The notes under the pieces: model-generated
The model's database searches: none
Seen by the model: only the letters and a program-made list of their open reading frames with translations
Told to the model about the DNA's origin: nothing
Program-made: the position numbers and the translations under genes
Origin: an uncultured Alphaproteobacteria bacterium
Lineage (GTDB): Bacteria; Pseudomonadota; Alphaproteobacteria; Micropepsales; Micropepsaceae
Length of the DNA stretch: 64,000 nucleotides
Direction of reading: 5' to 3'
Assembly: GCA_903897605.1 (NCBI GenBank)
Contig: CAIUCH010000054.1
Coordinates: 1-64,000, forward strand
Part shown: one piece after another, positions 20,872 through 61,273 of the stretch
Layout: each line of letters starts with the position of its first letter
Position numbering within the stretch: the first letter of the stretch is position 1

Positions 20872-20897
20872 ACTGCACCAAACCCATGCGCAGACCC

Positions 20898-20979
20898 GTC
20901 TCCCCTGTGCGCGCAAAGCGCGCTAGTAGGGGAGGTGGTCGTAGCTGGCTCTCGAGCCAGCGAAGACCGGAGGGGTAAG
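20898..20979 (+). repeat. composite hairpin repeat, family II copy A
   Basis: It begins CTCCCCTGTGCGCG, pairs with TAGGGGAG after about 20 nt, then has an inner hairpin GCTGGCTC/GAGCCAGC, and ends ACCGGAGGGG. The same order recurs at 24460-24543 and 28807-28907. It fills the fba-thiE gap. Confidence 0.8.
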
Positions 20980-21733: not shown

Positions 21734-22303
21734 ATGTCGAAAATTGCCGGTAACGAAATCCGCCCGGGCGCGATGATCGAGCATCAGGGCGCGCTCTGGA
21801 TCGCGGTCAAGACCCAGGCGGTCAAGCCGGGCAAGGGCGGCGCCTACAACCAGGTCGAACTCAAGAATATCGAAACCGGCACCAAGCTGAACGAGCGCTT
21901 CCGCTCGTCCGAGATGGTGGAGGAAATTTACCTCGACAAGAAGGATTTTCAGTTCCTCTTCGCCGGCGGCGACATGCTCACTTTCATGGACATGGAAAGC
22001 TATGAGCAGATTGAACTGGCCACCGATTTCGTCGGCGATCAGGCGCAGTTTCTGTCCGACGGCATGAAGGTGATGCTGCGGCTGCATGAAGGCCGCCCGC
22101 TTTCCATCCAGTTGCCGCAACTCGTCACCGTAACGGTGGCGGAAGCCGATCCGGTGCTCAGAGGCGGCACCGCCGCACCCTCCTTCAAGAATGCGGTGCT
22201 GGAGAATGGCCTGAAGATTCAGGTCCCGCCCTTCATCAGCGCGGGCGAAAAGATCGTGGTCAATACCGAAGACGGTTCCTATATGCGCCGGGCGGAATCC
22301 TGA
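21734..22303 (+). CDS. efp: elongation factor P
   Basis: 189 residues from ATG 21734. EF-P rescues ribosomes stalled at polyproline. The three OB-like domains are present; the loop KPGKGGAY carries Lys34, the residue that EpmA modifies in many bacteria. AGAAGG lies about 10 nt upstream; a GTG at 21725 would add three residues. Its stop codon forms TGATG with the ATG of the truncated extra copy of the suhB 5' end. Confidence 0.97.
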
Positions 22304-22416
22304 TGGCGTATCTCTCGCCTGCACTCAATGTGATGATCGCGGCGGCGCGGCGGAGCACCGGCCAGCAAAAGTGCGAAGCGGTTTTGCGTCCGGCCGTGCG
22401 ACCCATAAAGGACTGA
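22303..22416 (+). pseudogene. orphan second copy of the suhB 5' end, open through a repeat element
   Basis: Positions 22303-22350 repeat codons 1-16 of suhB (22418-22465) with 5 differences in 48 nt. All five are third-position silent changes (codons 2, 5, 6, 7, 8), so both copies encode [16 protein letters not shown]. The frame then continues open through the adjacent repeat and stops at 22414-22416, one nt before the intact suhB ATG, giving a 37-codon reading frame. Its ATG overlaps the efp stop (TGATG). It probably marks the original suhB start; it could now act as a coupling leader. Confidence 0.85.
22352..22403 (+). repeat. REP-like element, family I copy 1
   Basis: Left end GGAGCACCGGCCAGC, right end GCGTCCGGCCGTGCGACC, with CAAAAGTGC and GCGGTTTTG forming the central imperfect stem. 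Copies 2-4 are at 25518-25568 (inverted), 43248-43309 and 54832-54922. The left end directly abuts the orphan suhB fragment. Confidence 0.85.
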
Positions 22417-22417
22417 C

Positions 22418-23215
22418 ATGGCTTATCTCTCACCGGCCCTGAATGTGATGATCGCGGCGGCGCGGAAAGCCGGCCGCCCCCTGATCCGCGATTTCGGTGA
22501 ACTGGAGAATCTGCAGGTCTCGATGAAGGGCCCAGCCGATTTCGTCACCAGCGCCGACAAGCGTACCGAAGGCATCCTGATCGAGGAACTCACCAAGGCG
22601 CGTCCGGGTTATGGTTTTTTGGGCGAGGAAGGCGGCGTGATCGAAGGCAAGGACAAAACCCATCGCTTCATCATCGACCCGATCGACGGCACCACCAATT
22701 TCATGCATGGCATTCCGCAATTCGCCATCTCCATCGCGTTGGAGCGCGAAGGCCATCTGGTCTCGGCGCTGGTCTTCAATCCCGTTACCGACGATCTCTT
22801 CACCGCCGAGAAGGGCCATGGCGCTTTTCACAACAACAAGCGGCTTCGCGTCGCGGCCCGCAAGGAGCTGGGCCCCAGCGTTATCGCCACTGGCGTGCCC
22901 TTCATGGGCAAGGAGGGCCATGCCCGCGCCTTGGCCGAAATGGGCGCGGTGATGAACGTCACCGCGGGCATCCGCCGCATGGGCGCGGCCTCGCTCGACC
23001 TGGCTTTCGTCGCGGCCGGCCGGTTCGACGGCTTTTGGGAACATGGCCTGCAGCCCTGGGACATTGCCGCGGGCATCCTGCTGGTCAAGGAAGCCGGCGG
23101 TGTCATCACCGATCTGAATGGCGGCGAGCAGATGATGACCAACGGCCAAGTGTTGTGCGCCAACGAGAATCTGCATCCGCAGCTGCTCAAGCTACTGAAG
23201 AGCACGAAGGCGTAA
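22418..23215 (+). CDS. suhB: inositol monophosphatase family protein SuhB
   Basis: 265 residues, the usual length. Mg-binding motifs are GEEGG (69-73), DPIDGTTNF (87-95) and WDIAAGILLVKEAGG near the C-terminus. It hydrolyses inositol-1-phosphate and related sugar phosphates; in enterobacteria SuhB also joins the NusA antitermination complex. AAAGGA lies 7-8 nt before the ATG, inside the short spacer following the repeat element. The gene is intact although its 5' end is duplicated upstream. Confidence 0.96.
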   Translation: MAYLSPALNVMIAAARKAGRPLIRDFGELENLQVSMKGPADFVTSADKRTEGILIEELTKARPGYGFLGEEGGVIEGKDKTHRFIIDPIDGTTNFMHGIPQFAISIALEREGHLVSALVFNPVTDDLFTAEKGHGAFHNNKRLRVAARKELGPSVIATGVPFMGKEGHARALAEMGAVMNVTAGIRRMGAASLDLAFVAAGRFDGFWEHGLQPWDIAAGILLVKEAGGVITDLNGGEQMMTNGQVLCANENLHPQLLKLLKSTKA

Positions 23216-24643: not shown

Positions 24644-25495
24644 ATGCGTCTGAAAACCGCTACACTGTTGGCGAGCGTCTGGCTTGCAGGGTCGCTCACG
24701 GCCATGGCCCAGACCGTCGATCGCGGCAACGAAGTGTCCGTCAACCCGGTCATGGGCAGCTCCAGCGGCGTGCTGCTGTATCCGGGCGATCAATATATGC
24801 GCCTGGTCCGTCCCGCCCTGGAGGCCGGCGAAACCGCAAAAGACATGGGTCCGATCCAGCTCCACATGCCGACCCATCACGCCAGGACGGTGCGCAAGGT
24901 GGCCGCGCCCGCAAAACTTCGAACCTCCACGGCAGAGATCGCCCCGCCCGTCGCTCCAAAAGCCAAACCGGAGAAGCCCAAGCCTCAACCCAAGGCGGTT
25001 GCCAGCGCCGCGCCAGCCCCCCCCCCTTACGTGCCCGGCTTTGGTCCCAGCGACCTGGGTGCCGCAGGCCTCAATCTGGGCGGCGTGGCCGCGCCACCCA
25101 CGCGCATGGCCAAAGCCAATCCCCCGCCCGCCAATGTCACCACCCCGTCTGGCGCGGAAGCGGAATCACCGGGTCTGTCGAAGCGCAGTGTGATCCTGTT
25201 CGCGCCGCAAGCGGCCGATCCCGCCGATGCCGCGATGGGTGCGATCAAATTCTTGGCCGGCGATCTTAACGCCGCCATGAACAGCGCCTCCTCCCGCGTC
25301 CAGATCCAGGCCTATGGCGGCAACCGCGGCGACAAGGGGTCCGACGCAAGGCGGCTGTCGCTCAAGCGGGCGTTGGCGATCCGACAGGCCCTGATCGACA
25401 ATGGCGTCCCCGCCGAGCGCATCGATGTCCGCGCCATGGGCGGCGTCGATGACAAGGGCCCCGCCGATCGCGTTGATGTGTATGTGAAGGCCTGA
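24644..25495 (+). CDS. OmpA-like periplasmic/outer-membrane protein
   Basis: 283 residues. Signal peptide (cleavage after AMA, about 22). A middle section rich in Pro/Ala/Lys (about 75-160) acts as a linker. A C-terminal OmpA-like domain (about 180-283) contains RVQIQAYGG, then ARRLSLKRALAIRQALIDNG and PAERIDVRAMGG, the peptidoglycan-binding helix-strand pattern. It probably anchors something to the cell wall; the partner is unknown. Its last 38 nt are repeated at 25571-25608 beyond a repeat element. AGGCC/GGGCCC followed by TTTTTT just past the stop may be a weak terminator. Confidence 0.88.
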   Translation: MRLKTATLLASVWLAGSLTAMAQTVDRGNEVSVNPVMGSSSGVLLYPGDQYMRLVRPALEAGETAKDMGPIQLHMPTHHARTVRKVAAPAKLRTSTAEIAPPVAPKAKPEKPKPQPKAVASAAPAPPPYVPGFGPSDLGAAGLNLGGVAAPPTRMAKANPPPANVTTPSGAEAESPGLSKRSVILFAPQAADPADAAMGAIKFLAGDLNAAMNSASSRVQIQAYGGNRGDKGSDARRLSLKRALAIRQALIDNGVPAERIDVRAMGGVDDKGPADRVDVYVKA

Positions 25496-25517
25496 GCACG
25501 GGCCCTTTTTTCATTTC

Positions 25518-25568
25518 GGTCGCACGGCCGGACGGAAAAGTGGTTCCCACTTTTCCTGGCCGATGCTC
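25518..25568 (-). repeat. REP-like element, family I copy 2 (inverted)
   Basis: Read on the minus strand it runs GAGCATCGGCCAGG, AAAAGTGGGAACCACTTTT (a near-perfect central hairpin), CCGTCCGGCCGTGCGACC. The GAGCATC end lies 2 nt from the orphan copy of the OmpA-like gene end. Confidence 0.88.
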
Positions 25569-25570
25569 TT

Positions 25571-25608
25571 GCCCCGCCGATCGCATCGATGTGTACGTGA
25601 AGGCCTGA
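25571..25608 (+). pseudogene. orphan second copy of the 3' end of the OmpA-like gene
   Basis: 38 nt matching 25458-25495 at 35 positions, including the stop codon. In the gene's frame it encodes PADRIDVYVKA-stop against PADRVDVYVKA-stop in the intact copy: one conservative and one silent codon change. It has no start and is separated from the gene by the repeat element. Confidence 0.85.
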
Positions 25609-28753: not shown

Positions 28754-28806
28754 AACAATGAAAAGCTTTTAGATGGCTCAAGCTCTGGCGAAGCTTGGCA
28801 ATGACC

Positions 28807-28907
28807 CGCCTCCCCTGCGCGCGCAAAGCGCCCTGGCGGGGGAGGGTCGGTAGCGGCAGCGTGCCGACGTAGCAACCTCTCGAGGTTGCGTAGGGCGGAG
28901 GGGGCAA
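28807..28907 (+). repeat. composite hairpin repeat, family II copy B
   Basis: CTCCCCTGCGCGCGCAAAGCGC pairs with GGCGGGGGAG; then GTCGGTAGCGGC/GCCGAC and AACCTC/GAGGTT hairpins; it ends GGGCGGAGGGGGCAA. It is the longest copy, with one extra inner hairpin, and lies between two minus-strand genes. Confidence 0.8.
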
Positions 28908-43247: not shown

Positions 43248-43309
43248 GGAGCATCGACCAGGGAAAGTGTGAAGCGAAGCGGAACGGTTTCCCGTCCGGG
43301 CGTGCGACC
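43248..43309 (+). repeat. REP-like element, family I copy 3
   Basis: Left end GGAGCATCGACCAGG, centre GAAAGTGTGAAGCGAAGCGG, right end CCCGTCCGGGCGTGCGACC. It ends 7 nt past the 3' end of the ccmG gene. No duplicated gene terminus was found at this copy. Confidence 0.8.
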
Positions 43310-58858: not shown

Positions 58859-60001
58859 GTGGCCAACGACCGGATTATCCGCTTCCTCTGTTCGCTGGAT
58901 GGCGCGTCCACCAGCCGCGTCCTCAATCTGCGTCACATCGCGCGCCTCAATGCCAACGATCCCGAGCATGGCGGCAAGCCGCTGTTCCTCTCGCCGGCGC
59001 TCAACACCGCCTTCGTGCTCAAGCATCGCATCCGCCCGGACGAGACCTATCTGTTTTCCTCGTCGCGCTCGGCCGGAACCAAGATCATCTTGCCGGTGGA
59101 CATGTCCGATCTGCGCGCCGGCGGCCGCACCGTCTTCGTCGACCAGCGCGGCTTCGTCGAAAGCCTGCGCGAGGTGGGACATTATTCCGACGCGAATTTG
59201 GAGCGCGACATCACCGTTCTGCGCCTGCTCAACGCCATTCCCTCACTCGACCCCTTCCTGTTGCGCGAACATCTGCGCGCCAACGAGATCGAGGTGGCGC
59301 CCTGCTATTTCGCCATATCGGCCAACGACCAGGAACGCATGCACCAATTCGTCTCCAACGAATTGTCGCGGCTGGTGAAGCTTGCCAATGGCAATGGCGA
59401 TGACGATGGTTCAACCGGCCGGATGGTGACGGCGATGCTTTCGGGCCAGGTGAATGAAAAACTGGACCCCCTGCGCCTGACCCTGGGATTGAGCGAGAGC
59501 GATTTCCGCGAAGGCGCCTTCGGCTGGCGCGGGCTGCTCTATTATAAATGGGCGCTGCAGAACTTCTGGCCCGATGTGATGAGCGCGCTGCGCCAGATCA
59601 AGGAAGTCATGCCGCATGGCGCGATCAGCGACGCGCAGCGCGTTTATCTGCCCGCCGCCAAACGCAACATCATCGAATTGGTGCGCGACAACAATCAGCA
59701 CATCTCCAGGGTCTTGGACATTTATGACGATTCCTTCAACAGCCTGGTCGCCAGCAATTCGCCCAAGACCTTTCGCGATTTCCTGATGTCGGCGCCCTGC
59801 ATGTTCCTGGAGCTGGGGGAAAAGATGGGCGCGATATCCCATATTGTCAGTTTCTGGCGCTACCGTTTCCCGGCCGGCAAGCCGACCCAGGTGGACGCCG
59901 AGGAGCTCACCACCATCTTCCAGGATTTCACCAGCGGCTTCGCCGAACGCACCCGCCAGCAGTCCTCGCCCATCCCGCAGCCCAAGGTTATCCAGGCCTG
60001 A
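58859..60001 (+). CDS. unidentified protein, tandem paralog A
   Basis: 380 residues from GTG 58859; a TTG at 58844 is an alternative. No signal peptide and no membrane helix, so probably cytoplasmic. I do not recognise the family. Segments shared with paralog B include LDGASTSRVLNL, FLSPA-NTAFVLKHR, AIPSLDPFLLREHLR, STGRMVTAMLS, LPLRLTLGL-like and the C-terminal FLELGEKMGAISHIVSFWRY. It contains no obvious nucleotide-binding or catalytic motif. The start was chosen because it aligns with that of paralog B. Confidence 0.85.
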   Translation: MANDRIIRFLCSLDGASTSRVLNLRHIARLNANDPEHGGKPLFLSPALNTAFVLKHRIRPDETYLFSSSRSAGTKIILPVDMSDLRAGGRTVFVDQRGFVESLREVGHYSDANLERDITVLRLLNAIPSLDPFLLREHLRANEIEVAPCYFAISANDQERMHQFVSNELSRLVKLANGNGDDDGSTGRMVTAMLSGQVNEKLDPLRLTLGLSESDFREGAFGWRGLLYYKWALQNFWPDVMSALRQIKEVMPHGAISDAQRVYLPAAKRNIIELVRDNNQHISRVLDIYDDSFNSLVASNSPKTFRDFLMSAPCMFLELGEKMGAISHIVSFWRYRFPAGKPTQVDAEELTTIFQDFTSGFAERTRQQSSPIPQPKVIQA

Positions 60002-60118: not shown

Positions 60119-61273
60119 TTGACGGGCGATCGCACCATCCGTTTGCTGGCCGCGCTCGACGGAGCATCCACCAGCCGTGTGCTCAATCTCGGCCAGATCG
60201 CGCGCACCCGGGGCGCCGATCCGGAGTATCGCGAGAAGCCGCTATTTCTGTCTCCGGCGATCAACACCGCCTTCGTTCTCAAACATCGCACGCGTTCGGA
60301 CGAAAGTTATCTGTTCACTTCGCCGCGCTCGATATCGACCAAACTCATCGTGCCCTTCGACCTCAAGGATCTGCGCGCGGGCGGGCGCTCCTTCTTCATC
60401 GACCAGCGCGGCTTCATCGAAAATCTGCGCGAGGCCGGGCACTATCGGGATGAGAAGCTTGAGCGCGACGTGGTGGTGCTGCGTCTTCTAAGCGCCATCC
60501 CGTCCCTGGATCCTTTCCTGCTGCGCGAGCATTTGCGCAACAACGGCTTCGAGGTCGCGGCCTGCTATTTCGCCATCTCGCCGGGCGACCAGGAACGCAT
60601 GCATGATTTCGTTTCCGCCGAACTTCAGCAGCTGGTGCAGTTGGCCAGCGGCGGCAACGACCAGAACGGTTCCACCGGCCGCATGGTGACGGCGATGCTG
60701 TCCAGCCAGGTGGACGAAAAGCTCGAACCGCTGCGCCTGACCCTGGGTCTTAGCGGCCCGGATTTTCGCGAAGGCGCCTTTAGCTGGCGCGGATTTCTCT
60801 ATTACAAATGGGCGATGCAGAATTTCTGGCCCGATGTGATGGGCATTCTGCGCGAGATCAAGGAGATTCGTCCGGTCGGTCCGGTCGATGTCGAGCAGCG
60901 CGCCTATCTGACCTTCGCCAAGCGCGGCATCATCGAAATGGTGCGCGATCATGGCCAGCATATTTCCAGGATGCTGAACGTCTATGACGATTCCTTCGGC
61001 AGCCTGGTCGCCAGCCAGTCCCCCAAGACCTTTCGCGACTTCCTGCTCTCGGCGCCGAAAATGTTTCTGGAGCTTGGCGAAAAGATGGGCGCGATTTCCC
61101 ACATCGTCAGTTTCTGGCGCTACCGCTTTCCCAAGAGCCGCCCGTCCATGGCCGACGCCGAAGAGCTCAGCACCATTTTCCAAGACTTCACCAGCGGCTT
61201 CGCGGAGCGGAACCACAAGCAGGCCTCTCCCTTCCCCAAACCCCAGGTAATCCAGATCGACGCCGAGGTTTGA
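60119..61273 (+). CDS. unidentified protein, tandem paralog B
   Basis: 384 residues from TTG 60119 (GGGG about 5 nt upstream); a TTG at 60086 would extend it by 11 residues. Most positions are identical to paralog A through the whole length, with the main differences at the N-terminus, around 185 (a Gly/Asn/Asp-rich linker) and the C-terminal tail (KPQVIQIDAEV). It is a recent or selectively maintained duplicate; function unknown. Confidence 0.85.
   Translation: MTGDRTIRLLAALDGASTSRVLNLGQIARTRGADPEYREKPLFLSPAINTAFVLKHRTRSDESYLFTSPRSISTKLIVPFDLKDLRAGGRSFFIDQRGFIENLREAGHYRDEKLERDVVVLRLLSAIPSLDPFLLREHLRNNGFEVAACYFAISPGDQERMHDFVSAELQQLVQLASGGNDQNGSTGRMVTAMLSSQVDEKLEPLRLTLGLSGPDFREGAFSWRGFLYYKWAMQNFWPDVMGILREIKEIRPVGPVDVEQRAYLTFAKRGIIEMVRDHGQHISRMLNVYDDSFGSLVASQSPKTFRDFLLSAPKMFLELGEKMGAISHIVSFWRYRFPKSRPSMADAEELSTIFQDFTSGFAERNHKQASPFPKPQVIQIDAEV

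Follow-up and report, generated by a model that had tools for sequence, protein, structure and literature searches.

How the 3′ terminus of an OmpA-like gene comes to be repeated beyond an inverted copy of a short palindromic element was the question raised by this locus, which lies in a 64,000-nucleotide stretch of DNA (the window) from an alphaproteobacterial genome that we label G000. The first-pass annotation had reported that 38 nt at the 3′ end of the gene, stop codon included, recur with 35 matches and a single Val-to-Ile change, that an inverted copy of the element, here called E, lies between the two copies, and that the order of parts read along E is the same as at a second locus, suhB. 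All of this was borne out. The repeats agree at 35 of 38 positions; the gene encodes Val where the copy beyond the element (the orphan) encodes Ile, and the DNA between them holds a 52-nt palindromic element on the minus strand (Table 1). Along E from 5′ to 3′, both loci present an orphan terminus, GGAGC.., GCGACC, an A-rich tail, and the intact gene.

The score of the OmpA repeat pair had a P value of 0.0007 against a null of mismatched flanks. The GGAG end of this E copy is AGAGCATC, with one mismatch, and that of the remaining three window copies is GGAGCACC or GGAGCATC; folded as single-stranded DNA, the copy had a z-score of -4.4. Within the spacer between the intact terminus and E, the 12 nt adjoining E (GAAATGAAAAAA in E orientation) are the A-rich tail, and the remaining 10 nt resemble the 3′ UTR behind the same stop codon in a relative, G065. 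The OmpA end of G065, the closest relative (L372, contig C14, 3964-4237), consists of two tandem units, each made up of the terminus, a 95-nt spacer, and E; the repeats are about 133/135 identical, yet the two E copies are of different subtypes.

At suhB, the start of the gene is repeated with 43/48 matches, and the score of this pair was never reached in the mismatched-flank null. The orphan start sits where suhB would be expected, since suhB begins directly after efp in the element-free relatives searched. The intact copy lies behind E with a Shine-Dalgarno-like sequence of its own.

Table 1. Features in the window and duplicated gene termini at E in other genomes
Feature	Window position or genome	Strand	Evidence or remark
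Orphan suhB start (inositol monophosphatase)	22303..22350	+	16 codons; overlaps the efp stop codon
Element E upstream of suhB	22352..22403	+	79 bits
A-rich tail and Shine-Dalgarno-like spacer	22404..22417	+	CATAAAGGACTGAC
Intact suhB gene	22418..23215	+	
Second copy of suhB start	22418..22465	+	5 synonymous differences
OmpA-family gene, its 3′ end being the intact copy	24644..25495	+	Pfam PF00691, E value 6.9e-10; ORF list
Intact OmpA 3′ terminus, including TGA stop	25458..25495	+	GCCCCGCCGATCGCGTTGATGTGTATGTGAAGGCCTGA; direct repeat, copy within the OmpA gene
22-nt spacer between intact OmpA terminus and E	25496..25517	-	
Element E at OmpA, imperfect hairpin	25518..25569	-	GGAG-type end at 25569, GCGACC end at 25518; covariance model score 72.2 bits
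Orphan OmpA 3′ terminus	25571..25608	+	1 nt off the GGAG end of E
E copy	43248..43309	+	No detectable flank duplication
E copy, 91-nt form with enlarged loop	54832..54922	+	No detectable flank duplication
Duplicated termini, DUF815 and actR	G024		
Duplicated terminus, SpoU-type methylase	G016		
Duplicated terminus, FliL-like gene	G009		Named by resemblance; no Pfam match
Duplicated termini, short-chain dehydrogenase (SDR) and Sel1 protein	G008		
Duplicated termini, RNase H (rnhA) and one gene without a name	G064		
Duplicated terminus, OmpA	G065		

A consensus of 16 copies gives E as 52 nt, GGAGC[A/G]nCGGCCAG.AAAAGTG...GGTTTT.CGTCCGGCCG[T/C]GCGACC, which starts with GGAGC[AG]nCGGCCAG and ends with CCGGCCG[TC]GCGACC. 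The initial description of an element of only about 50 nt needed correction: variable loops, which bring some copies to 62 to 115 nt, give a range of 50 to 115 nt around the 52-nt form, and an 8-nt A-rich tail (A at 56 to 74% per position) follows the GCGACC end, with slight G enrichment behind it. The DNA preceding the GGAG side has a weak composition bias, and a strict target motif there was ruled out. A covariance model, with the best 150 candidates scored, found 36 to 38 copies across the 60 contigs (2.79 Mb) of this genome, and the counts among its relatives ranged from none to 41. In a pattern scan of named genomes, E was widespread in alphaproteobacteria, including Rhizomicrobium electricum and Bradyrhizobium. 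No E match reached the gathering score in Rfam, and none of the sub-gathering matches was E. Within 22 nt of E, in the flanks of about 200 copies, 115 gene termini lay on the tail side and 67 on the GGAG side; those on the tail side are mildly AT-shifted even where there is no orphan.

The element had also been described as encoding nothing, which holds only in part: two of its reading frames are open, and a number of copies sit in frame within genes. The latter were found within protein-coding genes matching KsgA/RrnaAD and MatE in Pfam and within other reading frames. One lies inside ksgA (L053, contig C15:52069-52148) and one inside a MATE transporter gene (L032, contig C33:25816-25867), where the relatives G066 and G080 have an E insertion as well (L432 and L436). 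Three tandem copies on contig C38 (L042, L045, and L047; 5387-5545) form 54-nt units that keep the frame of their host gene, which reads as rlmN-type, an assignment made by reading and not by Pfam.

The proposal that terminus repeats abut the GGAG end of E more often than at random sites was examined across 165, later 219, distinct E copies from this genome, its relatives, and named genomes. We scored repeats with one copy abutting one end of E, a similarity-based measure by which older cases may be missed. Repeats of a gene terminus were found at 13 loci among the 219 copies, and a score of at least 20 occurred in 10 of 215 E copies compared with 3 of 3,000 random virtual sites (Fisher P = 3.5e-10, tandem elements removed). 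Four of the loci (suhB, OmpA, DUF815, and NrdJ) are among the approximately 37 copies of this genome, the DUF815 copies being on contigs C15 and C23, and the others are listed in Table 1. The polarity was 13:0, the orphan lying next to GGAG and the tail pointing to the intact gene, and the exceptions occurred solely where E itself is tandem. Because the junction position is shared between G000 and G065 at OmpA and between G000 and G024 at DUF815, we count about 11 independent loci, for which the same polarity would arise by chance about 1 time in 1,000. The earlier argument that two loci of one polarity suggest a mechanism and not chance is sound as regards the pattern, which is real and generalizes to 13 of 13 loci, whereas the mechanism behind it is something that we infer.

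All 13 loci are at gene termini, 3 at starts and 10 at ends, and the limit of the repeat coincides with the start or stop codon or lies no more than about 5 nt away. No junction microhomology above chance was detected at these loci, and no junction motif was shared across the eleven different target genes. Since about 94% of E copies lack the duplication, it is not the obligatory insertion mode of E. No decayed orphans were found at the other copies at the peptide level; the distribution is bimodal.

The orphan, not the intact terminus, occupies the native position. The orphan suhB start overlaps the efp stop codon, which agrees with the position of suhB in relatives without E, and the DUF815 orphans are found on the flank where the convergent neighbor usually lies. 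In G024, the DUF815 orphan is directly followed by GAATTGCGC, as in element-bearing sisters; in G000, a short unrelated palindromic insert comes next and then sister-like downstream DNA. The intact terminus, on the other hand, is the compositional outlier. Over eleven loci, the G+C content at third codon positions (GC3) was 0.590 for the intact terminus compared with 0.778 for the orphan and 0.780 for the gene body, and the 10 codons just past the duplicated segment were back at 0.80. None of 20,000 random draws of body blocks was as low, the intact copy was the lower one in 10:0 loci where the copies differ, and the limits of the AT shift are those of the duplication. From this pattern, we conclude that the intact terminus is an unusual piece.

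A general end-of-gene effect could be part of the AT shift, since gene termini of relatives average a GC3 of 0.70 to 0.80, but the orphan at the same positions has no such shift. General hypermutation beside E was rejected, as E-adjacent ends without an orphan are just mildly AT-shifted. Horizontal replacement of the whole gene was likewise rejected, as both GC3 and codon similarity are normal right past the duplicated segment in the pooled data, although the return to normal is less clear in DUF815 of G000 taken singly.

The two copies differ almost only in synonymous ways. Over twelve pairs, 72 of 90 differences fell at codon position 3, and the differing codons were 68 synonymous and 12 nonsynonymous, with no frameshift. 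If the orphan had decayed as dead sequence, simulations gave a mean of 48 to 58 nonsynonymous codons, with a minimum of 37. Synonymous identity between orphan and intact copy ranged from nearly complete down to 0.17 (actR), and in DUF815 and actR, the orphan had more in common with orthologues from other species than with the intact copy. Such synonymous-only divergence indicates that the copies were working gene ends while they diverged and that this took place before they came to lie side by side.

The best explanation, which we put forward tentatively and short of calling it probable, is that E arrived joined to a diverged replacement gene end and inserted inside the same gene end. The inserted unit would run from GGAG through E, GCGACC, the A-rich tail, and a Shine-Dalgarno sequence or UTR to the gene end up to a point P, and it would have entered at P within that same gene on a chromosome without E, at the approximately 6% of E loci that have the duplication. 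The GGAG end would be joined at P, so that the resident terminus stays behind in its native context as an orphan, while the replacement terminus would keep the gene intact. The source may have been another strain or species in which this locus carried E and had diverged in sequence, and the DNA may have been a short, perhaps single-stranded, fragment starting at the GGAG foot of the hairpin. Its gene-end part would pair with the homologue, and the GGAG end would be joined illegitimately where pairing stops. Diverged copies would be the ones to survive, since deletion between identical direct repeats would be rapid.

Several results weigh against this explanation. A donor of the intact patches was not found among the sampled relatives, the best codon match being 9 to 10 of 16 to 18 among 30 to 37 related genomes, and no sampled genome of the genus had a GC3 below 0.71 (three to four genes each), let alone as low as 0.59. 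No enzyme or end-specific nuclease was found. The lack of microhomology also counts against it, because end-joining often leaves microhomology. The duplication loci, moreover, come from metagenome-type assemblies, with one strain per species. In addition, a second process is evident in the recent tandem units (OmpA in G065, L458 in G064, and the inner DUF815 unit in G000), which fit simple duplication.

Simple duplication is the core of the main rival, which we regard as unlikely overall. It holds that E was already beside the gene, that the unit of gene terminus, tail, and E was duplicated in tandem (unequal exchange could do this, as could the ligation of a 5′ flap ending in a hairpin), and that the outer E was then lost while the copies diverged. 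Both the polarity and the unit length (tail plus repeat, 31 to 135 nt) follow from it, and an outer E is present at actR in G024 (an old degenerate E ahead of the orphan), at the inner DUF815 unit of G000, at L458 in G064 (44/44 identical), and at OmpA in G065 (about 133/135 identical). However, nine loci have no outer E and an orphan in native context, as where the suhB orphan overlaps efp, and both the synonymous-only divergence and the AT-shifted intact copy are left unexplained; nor does it fit that the G065 E copies differ in subtype despite nearly identical repeats. The actR mosaic, compared with the sister genome G009, hinted at yet another possible route, Campbell-type integration of a small circle, in a comparison limited by sisters that are 35% different in codons.

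The synonymous character of the differences bears most directly on target-site duplication, in which long staggered cuts (19 to 67 nt) would have made the repeats, with the gene copy kept under selection and the orphan drifting neutrally. Direct repeats of variable length flank E, the A-rich tail recalls retroposons, and the youngest cases are 97 to 100% identical, but the 12 nonsynonymous codons compared with about 48 to 58 expected for a dead orphan, the absence of frameshifts, and the absence of intermediate decayed orphans do not agree with neutral decay. Moreover, the repeats end at or near a start or stop codon and not at random, and E copies away from gene termini have none. We therefore rejected duplication followed by decay as strongly disfavored, with a confinement to gene termini and synonymous differences that make it quite improbable. 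Selection on both termini, in which excision, bypass, or re-initiation would let the orphan serve as the gene end and the second copy would be a fail-safe, seems about equally improbable. It would explain why orphans keep their frame, protein, and native codon composition, and why the orphan ORF runs through E to the intact start in all three start-type loci; on the other hand, Rfam gave no ribozyme, splice, or bypass signal, and orphans of the end type lie beyond a stop codon, so that E would have to be removed. To our knowledge, such use of an orphan has no precedent. As for an artifact of metagenome assembly joining strains, the duplication loci all come from metagenome-type assemblies, and DUF815 in G000 spans a contig break. 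Nevertheless, the same polarity and the precise GGAG junction recur in seven separate assemblies, and most junctions are inside contigs, several of them long, which makes this account very improbable.

Among known systems, REP hairpins carry a short conserved 5′ tag and are moved by the RAYT transposase. E shares with GTAG-class REPs a hairpin and a short conserved 5′ tag, which is GGAG in E. Mobilization of E by a RAYT was nevertheless rejected, as the RAYT is missing from most E-rich genomes. Y1_Tnp (RAYT) was absent from G006, G007, G009, G024, and G065, which have 31 to 41 E copies each, and from G065, G066, and G080, the sisters of G000. This genome has a single Y1_Tnp (RAYT-like) gene (L062:1192-1926, contig C42), and the 3-kb locus around it contained no E match above noise. 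Gene-restoring integrative elements, such as e14 and phage 21 in icd and SXT in prfC, insert at a gene end by a site-specific integrase, each in one fixed gene, and leave an orphan terminus and a synonymously different replacement. The E loci likewise have an orphan terminus and a synonymously different replacement terminus, whereas E is about 52 nt, has no integrase and no fixed attachment site, and is found at eleven different genes. The earlier designation of gene-restoring insertion is supported as anatomy; the comparison with integrases and homing elements amounts to an analogy, there being no attachment site, microhomology, or transposase.

The available text of PMC3733652 describes CGTC and GTAG REPs and RPEs as short palindromes, many of them alphaproteobacterial, in dozens of copies. 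It places RPEs and intragenic REPs both between genes and in frame within genes, and the CGTC class has no dedicated transposase. E resembles them in copy number, palindromy, and in-frame insertion in protein-coding genes. It differs by that description in its GGAGC...GCGACC sequence of about 52 nt and its A-rich tail, and it has neither the CGTC terminal tag with an AT-starting stem of 8 to 9 bp nor the GTAG tag of the other class. Gene-terminus duplications of fixed polarity do not appear in the available text of that paper, where the word "duplicat" is absent, and literature searches, mostly of open-access text, returned nothing on gene-terminus duplications at palindromes. In homology-facilitated illegitimate recombination, as the accessible part of PMC3240628 has it, one end of the incoming DNA pairs and the other joins illegitimately. 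On the explanation favored here, the E loci would likewise have one homologous and one illegitimate end, but they differ from that account in that the illegitimate end is always the GGAG of E and microhomology is lacking.

E is best explained as a short, mobile palindromic repeat that is non-coding and has GGAG as its single precise end; it is an otherwise ordinary kind of palindromic repeat, and the phenomenon around it is real and recurrent. How palindromes without a transposase, RPEs and many REPs among them, spread has yet to be explained. The polar, recurrent junction, with GGAG inside a terminus and a rewritten terminus opposite, would be a physical trace of such a process, and it yields a defined DNA end to seek in the cell. 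It also points to a route by which repeats may enter important genes (suhB, rnhA, nrdJ, and actR) without destroying them, leaving directional marks that strain collections could read. We consider it possible, if rather doubtful, that E represents a minimal gene-end-restoring element that encodes no protein: the non-coding palindrome, about 60 nt long, would form the defined end of a mobile unit, and this unit would acquire the terminus of an adjacent gene and carry a synonymously altered version of it to the corresponding gene on a different chromosome, which would thereby be restored.

The start-type loci share a further property. The orphan suhB ORF continues across E and terminates 1 nt short of the intact ATG, and in all three loci of this type (suhB, actR, and SDR), the orphan ORF is open through E and the tail, with its stop at, or a few nucleotides from, the intact start codon. 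These three cases suggest translational coupling, which may be part of why start-type insertions are tolerated. Another palindromic repeat (CCTCACCCTTCGACAGGCTCAGGGTGAGG / CATGCTGAGC.TGTCGAAGCATGAGG) was seen just upstream of suhB in G016 (L257) and of SDR in G008 (L130). The window itself contains a second short repeat family at 20893-20935 and 28803-28845 (GACCCG.CTCCCCTG.GCGCGCAAAGCG..., 86% alike), as well as two 300-nt direct repeats at 58867-59166 and 60127-60426 that are 74% alike and are probably a tandem gene duplication.
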